DNA of 16,148 nt, taken from the NCBI GenBank assembly GCA_025354075.1, contig JANXNO010000178.1:1-16148 (forward strand), read 5' to 3'. Positions within the stretch are counted from its first letter, which is position 1; every line of letters begins with the position of its first letter. The translations under genes and the position numbers were made by a program. The notes beneath the pieces are model-generated. The model was not told where the DNA came from. It saw only the letters and a program-made list of their open reading frames with translations, and did no database searches. Shown one piece after another: positions 1,520-10,540 of this stretch. The DNA comes from Burkholderiales bacterium (GTDB taxonomy: Bacteria > Pseudomonadota > Gammaproteobacteria > Burkholderiales > Casimicrobiaceae).

Positions 1520-3394
1520 CTACTGCTGCGGTGGTGCCGGGGCACGATCCTTTTCGCGTGGCGCTCGGGGCGTTTCGGGAGCAGTTACCGGCAACGGGGT
1601 TGCGCGAGGTTGCTCGCGTCCACGCTCAACAACGGGGGTGGGCGGCGGCGTCGGCGCAGCCTGTACCGGTATCGGGCGCGGCTCGGCGGCACGGGCGGGC
1701 GGCGCAACGGGCGCAGGGCGCTGTGCTGGCACCGATGGCGCGTAGGGCGCGGGTGCAGCGTAGTTTGGCTGTAGTTCACCCCGCTCACGCTGGTCTTTCG
1801 GCATGGCAAGCGCGGGTGGGCGCAGCCCCGGATTTTCTGAAACGGCGGGCGGACGTTGCCGCTGCGGTGCTGCTTCAGCAGGGACGACTTGCTGGCGAGT
1901 CACAATGGGATTTGGGTCTTGCCATACGCGAGGTTGCGCGACGTTGGCATTTGGCGCGAACGGCACGGATGCAACAGGAGCTGCAGTGGGTTGGTTTAGG
2001 CCTGGCCCCATCGAGCGTTCGCGCACCAGTGCAGGCGCGACCGGCGGACGACCTGCGACGGGATTCGGATCAACGGGACGTGAACCGACACTGCTGCCGC
2101 GCCCCGGCTGAAATTGCGGCAATACTTCACCCATGCGGGCAGGTGGTGCGCTACGGATGTCGCGCTCGGAGATATTGCGCACCAGGTTTTGTGCGACGGG
2201 ACGTCCGCCGATAAAGGCCGATCCTGAGACTGCCGTGATCGCACCCGGTACCGAGGCGTGTGTGTAATTGCGGGGACGCCACGGTTCCTCGGCAATGTTT
2301 CGTACATAAGGGCGATTGACCTGACGCCAGTACGTCGGCGAATAGGTGTACCAGGGCACGTAAGGCTCGTTCCAGCCGAGCGGCACCCATGAATACGTCG
2401 GGCCAACGTTGGCGCTCACGCTCCAGCCGTTGCCGCCGAAGAACGTGACTAATGCAGGCGCGTATACAGGCCGCCCGACGCTGCTGCCGGGGCTCCAAGC
2501 CCAGCGCGGCCCAACGCGCACCCAGCGCCCGTAATGGAACGGAGCAAAGCCCCACGCCGCGTCGTCCACCCACGTCCAGCCCCACGGCTGCACCCAGCTC
2601 CAGCGACCGTTTCGATACGGTGCCCAGTTAGCAGCGACTGCGGTTGGATACCAGATGCGACCGTACTCGTAATCGTTGTCCCAACTGCCGTATTCGTCGA
2701 GGTCGCGCGCGCCGACCATCCACGGGCTTAACTGGCCAGCATTGCGCGATTCCCAGCGTTCATTGCGACGGTCGCGCGAGACGGCCCATGCTTCAAAGCC
2801 ACCGTTCGCGTTGTTGGCGTAATTGGCGTTGCGGTCAAAGCGCACACCGTTATCGTCGAGCACCACGCTGTCACCACGATTGACGATAACGCCTGGGCCA
2901 CGGGTCAGCACTTCGGCCTGCCCGCTACGCACATTCAGCGATGCGGGGGTGTACTGCGACTCGGCATTGACCACATAAAAGCCGGGCTGCAGGAATGCGA
3001 TTTCGCCGTTTGGTGTCAACACGCGCATTGCGTCTTGCTGCTCCCACGCGCGAATGCGCACTGCGATGGTGCCTTGCGACAACCGAGCCACCAGACTTTG
3101 ATCATCAAGCTGTTCAAAGTTGATATTGGTGCCGCCCGCGAGCCATACCTGCATCGGACCGACGTCCAGCTCGGCGCGCCCGCCCTCGCTGACCCACACG
3201 TTGTCACCTGCCGTGACGGCATAGTTACGCGGAATGGATCGCCATTCCTCACGCTCATTGGCCAATTGCACATCGCCCGCGAAGGTGGACAAGCGCGCGA
3301 CGCGACCAGGCGCATCGGCCCATGACGCAAGGGTTGCAGTGCCTGCCAGAATCGCAACCAGCAGGCTGCGCCATACATTTGTTCGAATATTCAT
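1520..3394 (-). CDS. Secreted FecR-domain / DUF6600 (YXWGXW) protein with proline-rich tail
   Basis: A 624-residue exported protein. Residues 1-26 are a signal peptide (basic start, hydrophobic core, cleavage probably after SWA). Residues about 32-180 resemble a FecR-type beta domain: a GDVQ start, a GDNVWVSEGGRAELDVG segment and repeated short strands. Residues about 230-345 carry the aromatic DUF6600 signature, with tandem WAPYRNGRWSWVQPWGWTWV and WGFAPFHYGRWVRVGPRWAWSPG segments. From about 415 to the end the protein is low-complexity, rich in Pro, Ala, Arg and Gln, with almost no hydrophobic core. The ATG at 3394 is chosen because GGAGA sits 6 nt upstream and the signal peptide starts there; the frame upstream is non-coding in character. 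Proteins of this type are probably periplasmic or envelope-associated, but their role is not established. No sigma factor or receptor gene is adjacent, so classical iron-FecR signalling is unlikely. Confidence 0.85.
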   Translation of the reverse strand: MNIRTNVWRSLLVAILAGTATLASWADAPGRVARLSTFAGDVQLANEREEWRSIPRNYAVTAGDNVWVSEGGRAELDVGPMQVWLAGGTNINFEQLDDQSLVARLSQGTIAVRIRAWEQQDAMRVLTPNGEIAFLQPGFYVVNAESQYTPASLNVRSGQAEVLTRGPGVIVNRGDSVVLDDNGVRFDRNANYANNANGGFEAWAVSRDRRNERWESRNAGQLSPWMVGARDLDEYGSWDNDYEYGRIWYPTAVAANWAPYRNGRWSWVQPWGWTWVDDAAWGFAPFHYGRWVRVGPRWAWSPGSSVGRPVYAPALVTFFGGNGWSVSANVGPTYSWVPLGWNEPYVPWYTYSPTYWRQVNRPYVRNIAEEPWRPRNYTHASVPGAITAVSGSAFIGGRPVAQNLVRNISERDIRSAPPARMGEVLPQFQPGRGSSVGSRPVDPNPVAGRPPVAPALVRERSMGPGLNQPTAAPVASVPFAPNANVAQPRVWQDPNPIVTRQQVVPAEAAPQRQRPPAVSENPGLRPPALAMPKDQRERGELQPNYAAPAPYAPSVPAQRPAPVAPPARAAEPRPIPVQAAPTPPPTPVVERGREQPRATPLPVTAPETPRAPREKDRAPAPPQQ

Positions 3395-3505
3395 GACGTT
3401 TCTCCGCAAGGAGATGTGTTGCCGAAACGACTTAACGTCTGGCTCCAGCACAGAGTTGACTCGGGCTAACCCTGTACAACTGAACGATCCACGCATAATT
3501 GCTGT

Positions 3506-3547: not shown

Positions 3548-5050
3548 GTGTCTCTCGCCATTACCTATAGCCGCGCGCTCGCCGGATTGCACGCTGAACT
3601 TGTCACCGTGGAGGTGCACCTTGCCAATGGTTTACCGGCGTTCAATCTGGTTGGATTGCCTGATGTTGAGGTACGTGAAAGTCGTGATCGGGTGCGCGCC
3701 GCGATTCAAACAGGCGGTTTTGAATTCCCGATGCGAAAGCTTACGGTGAATCTGGCCCCTGCCGAATTCCCCAAGGAATCCGGGCGCTTTGATTTACCCA
3801 TCGCTATTGGCATATTGGTGGCTAGCGGGCAGCTTCCGGCAGAGCGATTGAAGGGGCTGGAGTTTGCGGGCGAGTTAGGCCTTAACGGCGATTTGCGCCC
3901 GGTTCGTGGTGCGCTCGCAATGGCGATGGCCGCGGCGAAATCAGGTAACACGCTGGTGCTGCCACAATCGTCCGCAGTCGAAGCATCGCGTATCAAAAGC
4001 TGCAAAGTGCTCGGCGCAAAAACACTGCTTGAGGTCGCCGCCTTTATGGCAGGCAGGCACACGCTGGAAACGCCCGTCGTCGAGGAGCAAAACGAGACCG
4101 AAACATACCTCGATTTGATCGACGTCAAAGGTCAGGCACAAGCCAAGCGCGCGCTCGAAATTGCGGCGGCAGGTCGGCACAGCCTGCTTTTGATGGGGCC
4201 GCCCGGCACGGGCAAAAGCATGCTTGCGCAACGTCTGCCCGGCATCTTGCCGCCTATGACGGAGGCCGAGGCAACCGAGAGCGCCGCGATTTTGTCGTTG
4301 GTCGGCAAATTTAAGGTCGACGAGTTTGGGCAGCGACAAGTGCGATCACCGCATCACACCGCGAGCGCAGTTGCGCTGGTTGGAGGCGGCAGTGACCCCA
4401 GACCCGGTGAAATTTCGCTGGCTCATCATGGCGTGCTTTTTCTCGATGAATTGCCGGAATTTGATCGACGCGTTTTAGAGGTTTTGCGAGAGCCCTTAGA
4501 GAGTCGCGTAATCCATATTTCACGAGCCGCGAGGCAGGTTTCCTATCCTAGCCATTTTCAATTAGTAGCTGCCATGAACCCGTGTCCCGATGGTTACCTG
4601 GGCAGCAACATCGCAGCGAAACCCTGTCGATGTACGCCGGATCAGATTGCGCGCTATCGAGGCAAAATTTCGGGCCCGCTTCTGGATCGCATCGATCTAC
4701 AAATCACGGTGCCGTCCGTACCTACCGAGTCGTTGCGTGGTGCTCCGGACGGCGAGGTTTCGGTACGGGTGCGCGAACGCGTGATCGCGGCGGCGGCGCG
4801 ACAGCATCTTCGGCAAAAGAAAACCAATGCAGACCTCAGCTCAAGCGAGGTGGATACGCATTGCAGTCTGGACAGCCACGGCGAGACGTTGCTCCGTCAG
4901 GCCACCGCCCGGTTGGGCTTGTCCGCACGCGCGCAACATCGCATCGCCAGAGTAGCCCGCACGATTGCCGACTTGGCAGGCAGTGATCGAATTGCTGTGG
5001 CGCATGTAGCGGAGTCAATCGGGTACCGGCGCATGGATTCGCAAACGTAG
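3548..5050 (+). CDS. comM: ComM/YifB family Mg-chelatase-like AAA+ ATPase
   Basis: A 500-residue cytoplasmic ATPase of full family length. In studied Gram-negative bacteria ComM is a hexameric helicase that promotes branch migration when incoming single-stranded DNA is integrated during natural transformation. The N-terminal ChlI-like domain (about 1-175) contains the family hallmark VEVHLANGLPAFNLVGLPD. The ATPase core has Walker A GPPGTGKS (217-224), Walker B LFLDE (297-301) and the MNPCP (344-348) to CRCTP (360-364) cysteine segment, then SGPLLDRIDL (375-384). The C-terminal lid (about 430-500) ends in SIGYRRMD. The start is a GTG: residues SLAITYSRALAGL match the family N-terminus exactly, although no Shine-Dalgarno sequence is visible. 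The small-RNA terminator at 5191-5228 could also end this transcript. Presence of comM suggests, but does not prove, competence. Confidence 0.97.
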   Translation: MSLAITYSRALAGLHAELVTVEVHLANGLPAFNLVGLPDVEVRESRDRVRAAIQTGGFEFPMRKLTVNLAPAEFPKESGRFDLPIAIGILVASGQLPAERLKGLEFAGELGLNGDLRPVRGALAMAMAAAKSGNTLVLPQSSAVEASRIKSCKVLGAKTLLEVAAFMAGRHTLETPVVEEQNETETYLDLIDVKGQAQAKRALEIAAAGRHSLLLMGPPGTGKSMLAQRLPGILPPMTEAEATESAAILSLVGKFKVDEFGQRQVRSPHHTASAVALVGGGSDPRPGEISLAHHGVLFLDELPEFDRRVLEVLREPLESRVIHISRAARQVSYPSHFQLVAAMNPCPDGYLGSNIAAKPCRCTPDQIARYRGKISGPLLDRIDLQITVPSVPTESLRGAPDGEVSVRVRERVIAAAARQHLRQKKTNADLSSSEVDTHCSLDSHGETLLRQATARLGLSARAQHRIARVARTIADLAGSDRIAVAHVAESIGYRRMDSQT

Positions 5051-5093: not shown

Positions 5094-5122
5094 TTGACAT
5101 TGTTTTGTCTAGGACGTAGCAT
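5094..5122 (+). promoter_or_regulatory. Strong sigma-70 promoter of the intergenic small RNA
   Basis: TTGACA (5094-5099) is a perfect -35 box. TAGCAT (5117-5122) matches the -10 consensus at the key T1, A2 and T6 and lies at the optimal 17-nt spacing. It is the best promoter-like sequence in the window and stands 44 nt after the comM stop, with no gene downstream on this strand for nearly 1 kb. Initiation is expected near G5130. Confidence 0.75.
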
Positions 5123-5129
5123 TTAATTT

Positions 5130-5228
5130 GGACGCAAGTTCCCCGTTTCTCCTCCCTGAACGGGTGTCGGACAGTTCTCTGTTTGGCATTAAACCCCCGT
5201 ATTGCTTGTCAACCGGGGGTTTTTCTTT
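5130..5228 (+). ncRNA. Candidate small RNA with anti-Shine-Dalgarno loop
   Basis: An orphan promoter and an intrinsic terminator frame a predicted RNA of about 99 nt with no supported ORF. Hairpin 1 (5142-5164) pairs CCCGUU with AACGGG, plus one U-G pair, and exposes CUCCUCCCU in the loop; this contains CCUCC, complementary to ribosome-binding sites. Hairpin 2 (5166-5187) pairs GUCGGACAG with CUGUUUGGC around a UUCU tetraloop, with several G-U pairs. Hairpin 3 is the terminator. C-rich loops that mimic anti-SD sequences are known in several bacterial small RNAs. From memory, a 'Betaproteobacteria toxic small RNA' family found in cloning-toxicity screens has this feature, and this may be a member. 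It ends 7 nt before the converging engB stop codon. A role in blocking translation of selected messages is inferred. Confidence 0.72.
5191..5228 (+). terminator. Intrinsic terminator of the small RNA
   Basis: A nine-base-pair stem AAACCCCCG (5191-5199) / CGGGGGTTT (5214-5222) closes a 14-nt loop and runs directly into TTTTCTTTT. It is strong on the plus strand. Read on the minus strand the stem is followed only by TTTAATG, so it would be at best a weak terminator for engB, whose stop codon is 7 nt away. Confidence 0.85.
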
Positions 5229-5234
5229 TAAACA

Positions 5235-5924
5235 TTACTGGGCGTCGGCGTCGAGGGGTTCCGACGAATTGTTCAACCAAAGGTTGAACACCGTGGAGCA
5301 CTCTTTCATGCCTAATCCGGTGTGAGCCGAAAACATGACCACCGCGTCGCGCTCGTTGACCAGCGCGACGTTGTCGACACGAAAGGCGTTGCGCGCCTTC
5401 ATGCGTTCGCTTTGCGTCAGTTTGTCTGCTTTATTCAAGAGCCACAAAATACGAGGCCGTCCCGCACCCAAACCATCCATCCATTCAACAAACTGGGCGT
5501 CCAGGTCGGTGGTGCCGCGCCGGACATCAATCACCAAAACCAAGCCCCTCAGCGCTTGCCGTTCACGAAAATATTGCTCGATTACCCCCGTCCATACGCG
5601 TTGCTTGTCGCGCGGGGTTCGAGCAAAGCCGTAGCCAGGCAGGTCTACCAGATAGCCACCCGCGCGCAACGGGAAAAAGTTGAGCTCACGCGTTCGCCCA
5701 GGCATTTTGCTGGCGAAGGCTAGCCGTGTTTGGCCTGCAAGCTTATTGATGCTGCTCGACTTGCCCGAATTGGAGCGCCCGGCAAAGGCAATTTCCGGCC
5801 CGGTTTCCTCAGGCAGACCTTCCATGTCGACTACGGATTTGTCAAAAAAGGCACCGGCGAATTGCGGAATCCGCTCCAGACGAGCCTCCACGGCGAGCGT
5901 CGGTTTCAGCACGGGAGCTTTCAT
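5235..5924 (-). CDS. engB: Ribosome-biogenesis GTPase EngB (YihA/YsxC)
   Basis: A 229-residue cytoplasmic GTPase of the TrmE-Era-EngA-EngB group, required for late assembly of the large ribosomal subunit in bacteria studied. All G motifs are present: G1 GRSNSGKSS (49-57), G2 in PGRTRELNFF (75-84), G3 DLPGYG (94-99), G4 NKADK (164-168) and G5 SA (199-200). I chose the ATG at 5924; a TTG six codons upstream (5942) is in frame, and neither has a good Shine-Dalgarno site. The C-terminal coding region holds a perfect 8-bp inverted repeat (5271-5289). The gene diverges from cytochrome c4, an arrangement I know from other betaproteobacteria, and converges on the small RNA. Confidence 0.96.
   Translation of the reverse strand: MKAPVLKPTLAVEARLERIPQFAGAFFDKSVVDMEGLPEETGPEIAFAGRSNSGKSSSINKLAGQTRLAFASKMPGRTRELNFFPLRAGGYLVDLPGYGFARTPRDKQRVWTGVIEQYFRERQALRGLVLVIDVRRGTTDLDAQFVEWMDGLGAGRPRILWLLNKADKLTQSERMKARNAFRVDNVALVNERDAVVMFSAHTGLGMKECSTVFNLWLNNSSEPLDADAQ
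5271..5289. repeat. Perfect inverted repeat inside the engB 3' end
   Basis: GTTCAACC (5271-5278) and GGTTGAAC (5282-5289) are exact inverted copies with an AAA centre. They encode part of the VFNLWLNN segment of EngB. In RNA this would be a tight stem-loop about 35 nt before the engB stop. It may be chance, or it may help define the engB message end near the converging small RNA. Confidence 0.4.
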
Positions 5925-5953
5925 AGATCTATGTTTCGGCAATTCAGCAAAGT

Positions 5954-6038: not shown

Positions 6039-6710
6039 ATGCTTTTATTTATCCGCTCCTCCCGTTCAGCGTTCGTGCCCGCCCTTGTTTTGGCGCTTGC
6101 CGGGCTCGTTTCGATGTCGGCGCACGCGCAGATCGACAAAAGTCCCGACTTCGCGAAAGGGCAAGCGCTCGCCGGTGTTTGCGCTGGCTGTCACGGTGTC
6201 GACGGTGTAAGCCCCGTCCCGACTCAGCCAAATCTTGCGGGCATGAGCTGGCAGTACATCGCAAAGCAACTGCGGCACTTTAAAAGCGGGCAGCGCGATA
6301 ACGCCATCATGAAGGGGTTCGCGACCACGTTGAGCGACGGCGACATGAAGGCGCTCGGCGTGTATTTCTCGTCAATGAAGGGGCGCCCCATCGGAACCAA
6401 AGACGAAAAGTTAGCAAAAACTGCTGAGAAGCTCTATCGGGGCGGCGACGCTGCACGAGGAATCCCGGCGTGTGCGGGCTGCCACTCACCTTCCGGTGCT
6501 GGTATTCCAGCGCAATACCCACGCATCGGAGGTCAGCATGCCGAATACACGCTGGCCCAGTTGACGTCCTTCCGTGCAGGCATTCGCGGCGGCGCCACCA
6601 AAGACGATGCAAACATCGCGGGCAAAATGATGATGACGATCGCCGGAAAACTGACTGAACCAGAAATCAAGGCGCTCGCGGAATACACCTCGGGCTTGAA
6701 GGCCAATTAG
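6039..6710 (+). CDS. Periplasmic diheme cytochrome c4
   Basis: A 223-residue precursor. Residues 1-30 are a signal peptide ending AHA, so the mature protein starts near Q31. Two CAGCH heme c sites (48-52 and 145-149) sit in two similar domains, the classical c4 layout. Axial methionines are probably M91 in NAIMKGFA and one of M197-M199 in GKMMMTIAG. Each domain ends with a typical helix (LGVYFSSMKG, LAEYTSGLK). Cytochrome c4 carries electrons from the bc1 complex to terminal oxidases in the periplasm. The ATG at 6039 is taken because the signal peptide follows it; no Shine-Dalgarno is seen. The MOSC gene follows after 9 nt and is probably cotranscribed. In many betaproteobacteria the next genes are cytochrome-maturation genes (resB/ccsA); they are not here. 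Confidence 0.93.
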   Translation: MLLFIRSSRSAFVPALVLALAGLVSMSAHAQIDKSPDFAKGQALAGVCAGCHGVDGVSPVPTQPNLAGMSWQYIAKQLRHFKSGQRDNAIMKGFATTLSDGDMKALGVYFSSMKGRPIGTKDEKLAKTAEKLYRGGDAARGIPACAGCHSPSGAGIPAQYPRIGGQHAEYTLAQLTSFRAGIRGGATKDDANIAGKMMMTIAGKLTEPEIKALAEYTSGLKAN

Positions 6711-7608: not shown

Positions 7609-9600
7609 TTACGGTGTCGCGCAGAAGGCGACGCCTTCACCTGCCCAGCCGAGATCGTTAACCATGTACTTGTACATTGATGCTTGCTTATTCACGTCGT
7701 CGGGCAAATAGCGGTGATTTCCGTCGTTAAAGTAACGGGAGGAGTCCGCGCGAAAGGCGCGGTATATTTTTCGCTCGGTATCGAGGCACGTCGCTGTACC
7801 CGAAGAGATCAGTGGCGGTGCGACGTACGAGTCTGTACCCTCGTTGCAGAAATACAGGTTAGGTACGCCGTCGCATCCGAACGTAGGGTGTCGGAAGCGC
7901 TCGGTTCCGGTGTTAGTGATTAGCGTTCGCTCGCTATCCAAAACGGTATAAAAGTGCGATCCGCGAGCGCCGTTCTTTGCTGCTCCAGGAATGTAATAGC
8001 GCGTGATCGGAGCGGTGAAGGCGCTTGCTGCAGGATTGGTTTTGAACCAATACCCGGTCCGATACCAAAGGTGGTTAGCGTTTGCGTCCTGGATTGCGTC
8101 CAGCGTCGCTTTTTCGTTTTCAAGCGAACTGATGAAATAAAAGTCAAACTGCGGATTGAAGAATTCGACCATGGATGACTGCGTAGACGTGGAGGCTGGA
8201 ATGACAGCACTTGGTTTCAGGTACGTCGCCAGTTTCGAAAACATCAAATCCATGCGCGAGAAGCGATCAGCGCCAGTGGGTTCGCCGCAAGACGCTGCGC
8301 CGCCCTCAAGGCCTCCGCGCAGTTCATAGCAGGGCGCTCCGCCGCCACAGCTGGTGTTGTAGGTAAATACGCCTGACCCGCTTGACCCGCCCTCGGTGGT
8401 ACCTTGCGCCCACTGCACCGTTATGAAACTGTCTTTACCCGACTGTGGGCGTGGCGCTGTGTCGTACGCCGCAGGCCCCTTTGAGTAACCCAACATACTG
8501 CCTTGGGAGAACTTTTTAAGGTCGCCCGACGGATGATGCAAACCAATGAGATTAGCACCCGTCGGGATTACGGTCGCGTTCCACGCGGCAGGAATAGCAC
8601 CGATCGGCGGCGATTGCCGGAGCTGCAGCAGCGTGACATCGGTTGTTAAATCGGTCACTCTCAAATCAGCCCCGCCAGTCACCAGTTGATACGGTGGAAC
8701 GGCAATACTGTCACACGAAACAGCATCAAAGAACCAATAAGTATTCAGTGTTGATGCAACGCTCTGCGAGCTGATGCAATGCGCTGCGGCGTAAAAATAG
8801 TTGGCACCCGCGGTCGAATTCAACAAGGTACCCGTGCAGAGATAACTGGACCCCGTATCGGTGAACACCATTTTGGCAACTGCCTTTGCCGCATCGAGCA
8901 ACGCAGTGCTGGGATTACTCACGCAGGCGATGTCGATGTTGCAGGATCCAGCGGCACCAATCTGGCGCACATCTTTTTGTCCCAGACTTCCAGGTGGTAC
9001 GACGATGTGAGATAGCTGATCCAGCGAGACGCGGAATTGTGCTGCGTCAAATCCGGGAAGCAGGCGCAGCTCCACGGTTGCAGTGTCGCCTTCCAGTACA
9101 GGCGACCAGGCGGGATCAGTGTCCGTAACTGTCGCTGCGTAAACATCACCGCGGCCTACCCCGGAGAAGCGCACTTGCAGTCCCGCAGCCGGACCGTCAA
9201 CGTGATAGCCGATTCGAACAGCGAACGCGTCCGCTGCAAGCACTTCAATCCGCGCGACGTGGCTGCCGTCAGTCAGCGATTGCCAAGGCAAGGCGGTCAG
9301 CGGCAGGCTGCGCTCGTTCGCGGGAATGTCCCGCGGATAGCCAATCTGCAACGCCTTGCTACGCTCAGTATGCTTGTCCGTTGCCTTTTTTGCAGCCTCT
9401 ACAACCGCGGCGTTCCATGGACTCGCCGTCACGCGATGCGCAACCGTGTTTGACCCAAAAAAATGTTCAACCGGCAGACTTTTTTGGCCTTGCACCACGC
9501 CAGGTGCCATGCTGCGCAGCTCATCCGCGTGAACTGATCCGGTGTACAAGGTTGCGGTCAGCGCTGTGAGCGCTCCCAGTAAACATAGCCGTTGCAACAT
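7609..9600 (-). CDS. Secreted lysyl-endopeptidase-like serine protease with C-terminal DUF5648-type module
   Basis: A 663-residue preproprotein. Signal peptide 1-25 (ends VHA), prodomain about 26-214, S1-type protease about 215-462, aromatic DUF5648-like module about 477-663. The catalytic triad is H274 (AAHC), D321 (TDVTLLQL) and S407 (GGSSGSG). By eye it aligns with Achromobacter protease I: mature start GAAGSCNIDIAC, LCTGTLLN, GLHHPSGD, VQWAQGTTEGGSSGSG. All six disulfide cysteines appear kept (C220, C226, C255, C275, C296, C438), plus an extra pair (C418, C424). D445 may match the Lys-specificity aspartate. The C-terminal module repeats FFNPQFDFYFISS, GSHFYTVLDSERTLI and YRAFRADSSRYFNDGNHRYLPD. 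The ATG at 9600 has GGAGA 6 nt upstream; the open frame to 9873 overlaps rmlD and is rejected. It lies 67 nt downstream of rmlD and may be read from that operon. Confidence 0.88.
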   Translation of the reverse strand: MLQRLCLLGALTALTATLYTGSVHADELRSMAPGVVQGQKSLPVEHFFGSNTVAHRVTASPWNAAVVEAAKKATDKHTERSKALQIGYPRDIPANERSLPLTALPWQSLTDGSHVARIEVLAADAFAVRIGYHVDGPAAGLQVRFSGVGRGDVYAATVTDTDPAWSPVLEGDTATVELRLLPGFDAAQFRVSLDQLSHIVVPPGSLGQKDVRQIGAAGSCNIDIACVSNPSTALLDAAKAVAKMVFTDTGSSYLCTGTLLNSTAGANYFYAAAHCISSQSVASTLNTYWFFDAVSCDSIAVPPYQLVTGGADLRVTDLTTDVTLLQLRQSPPIGAIPAAWNATVIPTGANLIGLHHPSGDLKKFSQGSMLGYSKGPAAYDTAPRPQSGKDSFITVQWAQGTTEGGSSGSGVFTYNTSCGGGAPCYELRGGLEGGAASCGEPTGADRFSRMDLMFSKLATYLKPSAVIPASTSTQSSMVEFFNPQFDFYFISSLENEKATLDAIQDANANHLWYRTGYWFKTNPAASAFTAPITRYYIPGAAKNGARGSHFYTVLDSERTLITNTGTERFRHPTFGCDGVPNLYFCNEGTDSYVAPPLISSGTATCLDTERKIYRAFRADSSRYFNDGNHRYLPDDVNKQASMYKYMVNDLGWAGEGVAFCATP

Positions 9601-9667
9601 GATAAGTCTCCAGCAAAAAATTTGTGTATGTGGTGTGGCACGCGCGCGGCGGTGTTGCCAGAGCAAT

Positions 9668-10540
9668 TTACGCCCGTATCTTACGGCCTGCGAGGCAGCG
9701 CTGCAATCCATCCTGCCATCGCGGCGTGTTGCATCCAAATGCCGCCACGAAACGATTTGCATTGAGCGCACTGTAGGAGGGGCGCTTTGCTGCTGTCGGA
9801 TAGTCAGACGTAAGAATCGGCTCGACAGCGACACGATCATCGAGTCCGGCCCCTTCAATAATCGCGGTCGCAAAATCCTGCCATGAAGTTGGTCCCTGGC
9901 CGGACAGGTGGTAGAGCCCGCTCAAGCTACGAAGTTCCGCAAGCGACCGACTGAGCGTGCAAGCCACCGCGTCCGCGAGGTCGGCTGCGTAATTGGGCAC
10001 GCCCCACTGATCGGCCACCACGCGCAGCACGGGTCGATCCTGCGCGAGTCGCAACATGGTTTTGTAAAAATTTGCACCGTCATTGCTGTAGACCCAACTG
10101 AGTCGGAAAATCAAATGCTCGGGCAAGAGGGCAGCTATGCAGGTTTCACCCTCGAGTTTTGTGCGGCCATAGACGCTTGTTGGCGCAGTTGCGTCCGTCT
10201 CGACGTAGGGCTGTGTCACGCGACCGTCGAATACGTAATCCGTTGAAAAATGAACGAGAAAAATACCGAGTTCACGGCACGATTTCGCAAGGTGGTTGGG
10301 GCCTTCCGCGTTGATTGCGTGGGCCAGCGACGGTTCAGTCTCCGCGCGATCCACGGCGGTGTAGGCGGCGCAGTTCAGCAGCACACCGGGCCGTTCTCGC
10401 TGCAGCACCTCAAAGCAGGCTTTCGTGTCAGCGAGATCAAACATGTCTCGCGCGACAGCCACTACTTCATGCGTACCGCGCAACCTGCGCGTCAAGGCCA
10501 AACCGAGTTGACCATTCGCACCCGAAATCAGCAACTTCAT
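9668..10540 (-). CDS. rmlD: dTDP-4-dehydrorhamnose reductase RmlD
   Basis: A 290-residue cytoplasmic short-chain dehydrogenase that makes the last step to dTDP-L-rhamnose, reducing dTDP-4-dehydro-L-rhamnose with NAD(P)H. The Rossmann nucleotide loop is GANGQLG (7-13). NCAAYTAVD (56-64), FSTDYVFDG (98-106) and the catalytic pair Y124/K128 in VYGRTK are all present. Its ATG overlaps the rmlC stop in an ATGA arrangement, indicating translational coupling. Length is normal for the family. Confidence 0.97.
   Translation of the reverse strand: MKLLISGANGQLGLALTRRLRGTHEVVAVARDMFDLADTKACFEVLQRERPGVLLNCAAYTAVDRAETEPSLAHAINAEGPNHLAKSCRELGIFLVHFSTDYVFDGRVTQPYVETDATAPTSVYGRTKLEGETCIAALLPEHLIFRLSWVYSNDGANFYKTMLRLAQDRPVLRVVADQWGVPNYAADLADAVACTLSRSLAELRSLSGLYHLSGQGPTSWQDFATAIIEGAGLDDRVAVEPILTSDYPTAAKRPSYSALNANRFVAAFGCNTPRWQDGLQRCLAGRKIRA

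Follow-up and report, generated by a model that had tools for sequence, protein, structure and literature searches.

Between comM and engB, the window (the whole 16,148-nucleotide stretch of Burkholderiales DNA analyzed here) contains a small RNA (sRNA) gene that matches the Rfam family RF02837, named anti-hemB. Our overall explanation, which we consider probable, is that the product is a trans-acting, Hfq-type sRNA of RF02837, that this family is to be joined with the ErsA lineage, that the RNA would repress a limited set of mRNAs through the loop UCCUCCCU, and that its promoter has switched to a sigma-70 type. The family match, the structure, the synteny, and the promoter classes all come directly from computation. 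An earlier note on this DNA had read the element as a free-standing sRNA whose loop exposes an anti-Shine-Dalgarno sequence. That reading is supported, as is the conservation of stems and loop for which the note suggested looking. What lifts the support above chance is comparative evidence: an RF02837 score above the cut-off, two-sided changes at all modeled base pairs, and a TTGACA box in every sRNA-bearing member of the clade. The family is already catalogued. Within the literature searched, three points appear to be new, namely that anti-hemB is joined to ErsA, that most members have a sigma-E-like promoter, and that the window's clade has replaced it.

Locus and predicted transcript

The sRNA gene lies on the forward strand and opens with a −35 box, TTGACA (5094–5099), and a −10 box, TAGCAT (5117–5122), separated by a 17-nt spacer. 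This pair is the best of seven promoter-like sites in the window, with 10/12 matches, and because 5.8 such sites are expected by chance the promoter scan alone is no proof. TTGACA recurs in 7/7 sRNA-bearing clade members, where the −10 counterparts read TATATT, TAGAGT, TAAAGT, or TAAATT and are weak in L013 and L014. Within the spacer, GTCTAGGAC (5106–5114, forward strand) is also present in L002 and L009, and a CGTCYTAGACG-like palindrome surrounds the start in L002, L004, L006, and L014 and partly in L013; either may be an operator.

The predicted transcript of about 100 nt runs from 5129, a start placed from the −10 box, to 5228 on the forward strand, as indicated by the family match and by folding. 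Its folding z-score is −3.56, and none of 200 shuffles is equally stable. A 5′ mini-hairpin (5130–5141) that lies outside the Rfam model is followed by hairpin SL1 (5142–5164), hairpin SL2 (5165–5188), and an intrinsic terminator with a 9-bp stem and a T-rich tail (5191–5228); SL1, SL2, and the terminator are supported by both folding and covariation. The SL1 loop UCCUCCCU (5150–5157) is 8 nt long; in the computed ensemble it is unpaired to at least 99%. The boxes, the spacer, and the terminator with its tail are thus confirmed as the earlier note had drawn them. Its C-rich unpaired loop in the first hairpin also stands, with the amendments that the note's CUCCUCCCU is one nucleotide too long relative to UCCUCCCU and that the small hairpin at 5130–5141 comes before the one carrying the loop. 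A stretch folding below −5 kcal/mol is found at the position of that mini-hairpin in 68/73 matches of the order sample. Five short open reading frames overlap the stretch (65 aa, from a TTG at 5128 and running past the terminator, and 35, 34, 30, and 26 aa), and judged by sequence none looks like a gene.

Upstream lies comM (3548–5050, forward strand; Mg_chelatase domains). Downstream and convergent with the sRNA is engB (5235–5942, reverse strand; MMR_HSR1 GTPase domain), followed by a cytochrome c4-like gene (6039–6710, forward strand; Cytochrom_C). Elsewhere in the window, a long DUF6600 protein with a proline-rich tail is encoded at 1520–3496 on the reverse strand, and a weak Magnesium-II riboswitch-like match at 9023–9139 on the same strand (24.1 bits against a cut-off of 40), which sits within an open reading frame with a trypsin-like domain (7609–9873, reverse strand), is probably due to chance.

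Family assignment and conserved structure

A cmscan search at E ≤ 1 assigned positions 5140–5228 (forward strand) to RF02837 with 55.7 bits against a cut-off of 49.5 (E 6.8e-11), covering model positions 1–81 of 81, and this is the sole copy found in the genome. The hallmarks of the family are present: SL1 with a C/U-rich loop, SL2, and an intrinsic terminator. A position beside hemB, which comes from the family name only and lies outside the model, does not apply here, as no HemB match was found in the window. The earlier note had pointed to a betaproteobacterial toxic sRNA family, RF02278, and had suggested an Rfam covariance search; that search returned RF02837 instead. RF02278, for which a model score of at least 50 bits was sought, gave no match in the window at E ≤ 1 and none in the genome at E ≤ 0.001, a search in which the control genomes were also silent. 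There was likewise no match to RF01719 (Pseudomon-1/ErsA; cut-off 50 bits) in the window at E ≤ 1 and none to RF00021 (Spot 42; cut-off 80 bits) in the window or its own genome, G000.

The earlier note had also called for covarying stems and a C-rich loop among relatives, and both were found. A model built from 27 sequences, R1, gave 96 matches over 100 loci. In the R1 alignment 96.1% of cells are paired, 21/21 modeled pairs have changed on both sides, and 0/500 shuffles reach any of five measures. The structure was used in fitting the alignment, and the shuffle control is inflated by relatedness; the stronger control is the one in which structures were slid by 1–3 columns, which drops pairing to 32–57%. 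The motif CTCCCT occurs within the first 36 nt in 72/73 order matches; among the class matches listed it occurs in 79/99 with engB or polA adjoining and in 18/51 without. The loop of the last hairpin is C-rich in 61/73 order matches and 64/99 listed class matches. These 99-match tallies include the window's own genome, and the promoter counts given below, over 98, leave it aside.

In Burkholderia cenocepacia the member of the family is ncS04, a 105-nt RNA with Northern blot data and a 3′ end determined by RACE in the accessible part of the report, which also cites Hfq binding of ncS04 from other work (PMC5688073). As a separate observation, the engB-linked RF02837-like RNA at L037:1497-1597 (forward strand) also resembles the alphaproteobacterial RNA ar14 (31.3 bits, cut-off 58.8, E 0.05).

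Distribution and gene neighborhood

RF02837 was found at E ≤ 0.001 in 80/100 genomes of the order sample, 72 of them above the cut-off, and in 124/274 genomes of the class sample, 14 above it. Because matches below the cut-off also appeared in 3/14 control genomes (E. coli, Caulobacter, and Deinobacterium), this threshold is permissive and the weak matches include chance ones. The order tallies rest on 73 matches from 69 of the 80 matching genomes, with weaker matches and G000 omitted. The class tallies are drawn from the matches listed, 150 of which were examined, leaving 148 from 117 genomes after G000 and G107 were set aside. In G107, locus L046 carries an RF02837 match of 65.7 bits that has stayed with hemB, and engB of that genome is found at another place.

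Within the order, engB lies in the fetched flank of 61/73 matches, 51 of them convergent with the sRNA and 10 with the sRNA inverted, and the cytochrome c4 gene is found together with engB in 57/73. A divergent hemB lies upstream in 56/73, which explains the family name, and engB or hemB is present in 67/73. In the distant genomes polA often occupies the other side of engB, which is the locus of Spot 42 and ErsA. We infer from EngB divergence and from the polA-engB order that these distant genomes of the class belong to the gammaproteobacteria as classically understood. Among listed class matches, engB or polA adjoins 68/82 scoring at least 35 bits, 22/33 at 30–35 bits, and 8/33 below 30 bits. 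Many matches far below the Rfam cut-off are therefore genuine, and the weakest are mostly chance. An sRNA that is inverted relative to engB but keeps its place occurs in 6 listed class matches as well as in the 10 order matches; L183, L191, and L192 are among these loci. RF02837-like matches are clustered in some genomes, four each in G171 and G263 and two each in G262, G150, G106, G148, G128, and G124 (loci L075, L079, L048, L051, L033, L080, L061, and L150); those of G124, and part of those of G263 and G128, are weak.

The synteny suggested by the earlier note needs to be redrawn. Conservation of the sRNA with engB and the cytochrome c4 gene is real, and comM-engB as a conserved pair is not: comM lies beside the sRNA in 0/73 order matches and 0/148 listed class matches and was seen as its neighbor in the window's close clade alone. 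The named close relatives are metagenome-assembled genomes labeled Burkholderiales, Betaproteobacteria, or Proteobacteria; L015, a Bacteroidales record, was set aside, and L005 and L009 come from one assembly, with L005 ending at engB. In 6/12 informative named relatives (L002, L004, L006, L009, L013, and L014) the RNA keeps its place between comM and engB. No match was found at the engB locus of L003, L007, L008, L010, L011, or L012, nor at that of the same-genus genome G311, so the RNA is dispensable.

These neighborhoods bear on two other readings of the locus. The first sees no sRNA function here and takes the element for nothing more than the terminator of comM, the processed 3′ end of its transcript, or a terminator that serves comM and engB in both directions. 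The terminator does sit between the convergent comM and engB genes, and some close relatives manage without the RNA. We nevertheless regard this as quite improbable: the two hairpins that precede the terminator, SL1 and SL2, show covariation across distant genomes, members of the clade share a conserved promoter, hemB or polA stands elsewhere in the family where comM stands here, and a homologue has been detected as a transcript according to the available portion of the B. cenocepacia report (PMC5688073). The second, taken from the Rfam name, is a cis-acting or antisense regulator of hemB. It draws on the same 56 order matches with hemB divergent upstream and is nonetheless very improbable, given that the window has no HemB match, that polA occupies hemB's place in many listed class matches, and that the RNA is divergent from hemB without overlap in the counted loci.

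Promoter classes and a probable switch in the window's clade

Upstream of the relatives' RNAs we read GGAACTT-N16-GTCTnA-like elements, which we take to be the sigma-E/AlgU consensus. A strict sigma-E regular expression, written after those upstream sequences had been read, matched 54/73 order matches against 0.6 expected from shuffles. Among listed class matches it was found in 39/72 convergent with engB (0.6 expected), in 15/20 with polA only (0.1 expected), and in 14/51 without engB or polA (0.4 expected), and in random windows it hit 16/3996. A looser version matched 63/73 order matches and 84/98 listed class matches with 194/4015 in random windows. The strict expression is missing from 19/73 order matches and the looser one from 10/73.

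The window's clade is of another kind. The window itself matches neither sigma-E expression and does match the sigma-70 expression. Across the clade the strict sigma-E expression was found in 0/7 members and the loose one in 1/7 (L004), and the sigma-70 expression was found in 5/7, rising to 7/7 with a looser −10 version. Elsewhere both sigma-70 versions were found in 0/73 order matches and 0/98 listed class matches. In a midpoint-rooted tree of EngB plus cytochrome c4 (71 loci, L009 excluded), the window's clade forms a separate long branch that contains both sigma-70 and sRNA-less members; because the branch holds both, the simplest reading of these sequences would be one promoter switch near the base of the clade followed by losses. 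G355, a genome labeled as the same family, is placed elsewhere on this tree. Loss of RpoE was considered as a cause of the switch and rejected, as 20/20 tested genomes, G000 and G311 included, match RpoE over the NCBIfam cut-off.

Possible relation to ErsA, and shared position with Spot 42

ErsA is described in excerpts of three papers as a Hfq-assisted, AlgU-dependent sRNA in the polA-engB region (PMC8575079, PMC8395346, PMC7264166), and the consulted part of a review terms it a functional orthologue of Spot 42. Its Rfam family, RF01719, was described from Pseudomonadales (PMC2864571, seen in part). A second model, R2, was built from the 96 R1 matches without known ErsA members and was applied to 59 genomes from a single family, that of the PrrF-carrying genome G162, which is probably Pseudomonadaceae. 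R2 matched 9/59 genomes, with 3 matches between polA and engB (29–30 bits, E 4e-4 to 8e-4) and 6 elsewhere. The same three polA-engB RNAs are RF01719 according to Rfam, with 126.8, 72.1, and 70.8 bits. A sigma-E-like element lies upstream of two of the three, and the sequence stretch of the third starts inside the promoter. RF02837 gives just 18–19 bits on two of these ErsA RNAs. Conversely, L018, L025, and L044 match RF02837 with 45–58 bits and RF01719 with 30–33 bits (cut-off 50, E 0.01–0.07) in the same place. Although the scores are modest, the recovery by R2 of three RNAs assigned to ErsA in Rfam, together with the three loci that resemble both families, suggests that anti-hemB and ErsA may be one engB-linked family. 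Among the 78 class loci behind R2, none of the 46 scanned reached the RF01719 cut-off, and none of the 78 carries a motif characteristic of the three ErsA loci. The engB locus of G162 itself yielded no sRNA. We found no paper joining anti-hemB with ErsA in a search that covered literature outside subscription journals and most preprints.

Another reading is that anti-hemB and ErsA are unrelated and converged on C-rich loops at a locus favorable to sRNAs. The modest R2 scores on ErsA, the six of nine R2 matches that fall elsewhere, the weak RF01719 scores on three class loci, and the long unstructured domain of ErsA, which is not seen in RF02837, all fit convergence. We hold it to be unlikely, though to be taken seriously, because the two groups share a locus, sigma-E-like promoters, and similar hairpin and terminator loops, and because the three polA-engB matches of R2 are exactly those that Rfam calls ErsA.

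Spot 42 shares the position. The E. coli gene spf lies between polA and yihA/engB, and spf of Vibrionaceae is likewise placed between polA and engB (PMC3295665, in part). Kinship in sequence was sought and none was found: RF00021 matched in 0/274 class genomes, R1 gave no match on the E. coli locus, and RF02837 gave none on spf at E ≤ 10, so that the likeness is one of position only. More tentatively, and with somewhat less than even confidence, we propose that one sRNA gene has stood beside engB since before the split of beta- and gammaproteobacteria. The ancestor would have been sigma-E-driven with several anti-Shine-Dalgarno loops, and its present tips would be anti-hemB/ncS04 and ErsA, with Spot 42 added on position alone. 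The promoter would have been rewired at least twice, once to CRP control on the way to Spot 42 and once to a sigma-70 type in the window's clade, so that an RNA of the envelope-stress response came under metabolic or constitutive regulation.

Candidate targets and proposed function

For the part of the explanation that concerns activity, namely transcription in the window's genome, Hfq binding, target pairing, and the outcome, we infer the following. The gene's own promoter and terminator would yield an RNA of about 100 nt, in which the SL1 loop UCCUCCCU could pair with the purine-rich Shine-Dalgarno region in a limited number of mRNAs. The pairing would be assisted by Hfq at the U-rich tail and would block ribosome binding. 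Hfq-assisted repression of selected mRNAs through UCCUCCCU, rather than action as a general sponge, is the most likely outcome by analogy with ErsA, which acts with Hfq to repress algC and oprD in the accessible parts of two reports (PMC8395346, PMC7264166).

The loop is complementary to AGGGAGGA, and a genome pattern search found perfect loop sites 2–11 nt before an ATG in 3 cases against 2 for the reversed control. One of the three sites precedes a gene for a TctC-type receptor, the next an MFS transporter gene, and the last an open reading frame of 25 aa that is probably no gene. Their computed duplex energies are −31.5, −26.4, and −27.0 kcal/mol, so that energy does not tell the two likely genes from the doubtful frame. 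These candidate sites are leads only. Two of them stand before transporter genes, which would fit the transporter targets given for S17 of Bordetella in part of PMC11722255 and proves nothing.

The earlier note had inferred sequestration of ribosome-binding sites, or a sponge or stress regulator. A rival to selective repression is accordingly an RNA that, like the toxic sRNAs, turns its anti-Shine-Dalgarno loop on translation in general and dampens it, or acts as a sponge. Its loop is exposed and has the required complementarity, and overexpression of a different CU-rich RNA, ncS27, slows growth of B. cenocepacia in the consulted part of PMC5688073. The scan of perfect 8-nt pairings, with just 3 sites against 2, does not favor so broad a role, the match is not to RF02278, and Bordetella S17S, with a similar loop, hardly slowed E. 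coli in the part of PMC11722255 available. We therefore judge a general dampener improbable, and selective repression remains our preferred reading.

Since most relatives carry a sigma-E/AlgU-like promoter, the inherited role would probably be in the envelope-stress response. In the one species where the family was measured, such a response was not seen: none of the seven conditions listed in Table 2 of PMC5688073, a source consulted in part, altered ncS04 significantly. In the window's clade, where the promoter has changed to the sigma-70 type, the RNA is predicted to be made without envelope stress, either constitutively or under another regulator.

Union with ErsA, together with the sigma-E-like promoters, leads to the hypothesis that betaproteobacteria and many gammaproteobacteria share a widespread sRNA for envelope stress. 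E. coli has sigma-E-dependent sRNAs, to which the proposed role of RF02837 would be comparable. Many polA-engB RNAs reach no Rfam cut-off; 40 class loci, 39 of them with engB or polA adjoining, are assigned to no sRNA family. The window's clade additionally offers a natural case of promoter-class switching in a conserved sRNA while RpoE is still present.

Comparison with known systems

The closest known relative is RF02837/ncS04 (Burkholderia RNA 7), which the window RNA resembles in size, hairpins, C/U-rich loop, and terminator. It differs from the RF02837 relatives in adjoining comM rather than hemB, in having a sigma-70-like promoter whereas those of the order are mostly sigma-E-like, and in a terminator loop that lacks the C-rich run common in the order. 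The toxic sRNAs of RF02278 (ncS03, ncS05, ncS27, and ncS62) and S17 of Bordetella are likewise short hairpin RNAs that expose a CU-rich stretch complementary to ribosome-binding sites, but RF02278 is a family separate from the window RNA. With ErsA of Pseudomonas the window RNA shares engB as a neighbor, C-rich hairpin loops, and a terminator. ErsA, however, lies between polA and engB, is driven by AlgU, and has a long unstructured domain, whereas the window RNA lies between comM and engB and shares only the engB side. Spot 42 (spf, RF00021) of E. coli and Vibrionaceae is repressed by cAMP-CRP, according to part of PMC3295665, and is, as in the window, an sRNA that adjoins engB/yihA and is convergent with it.
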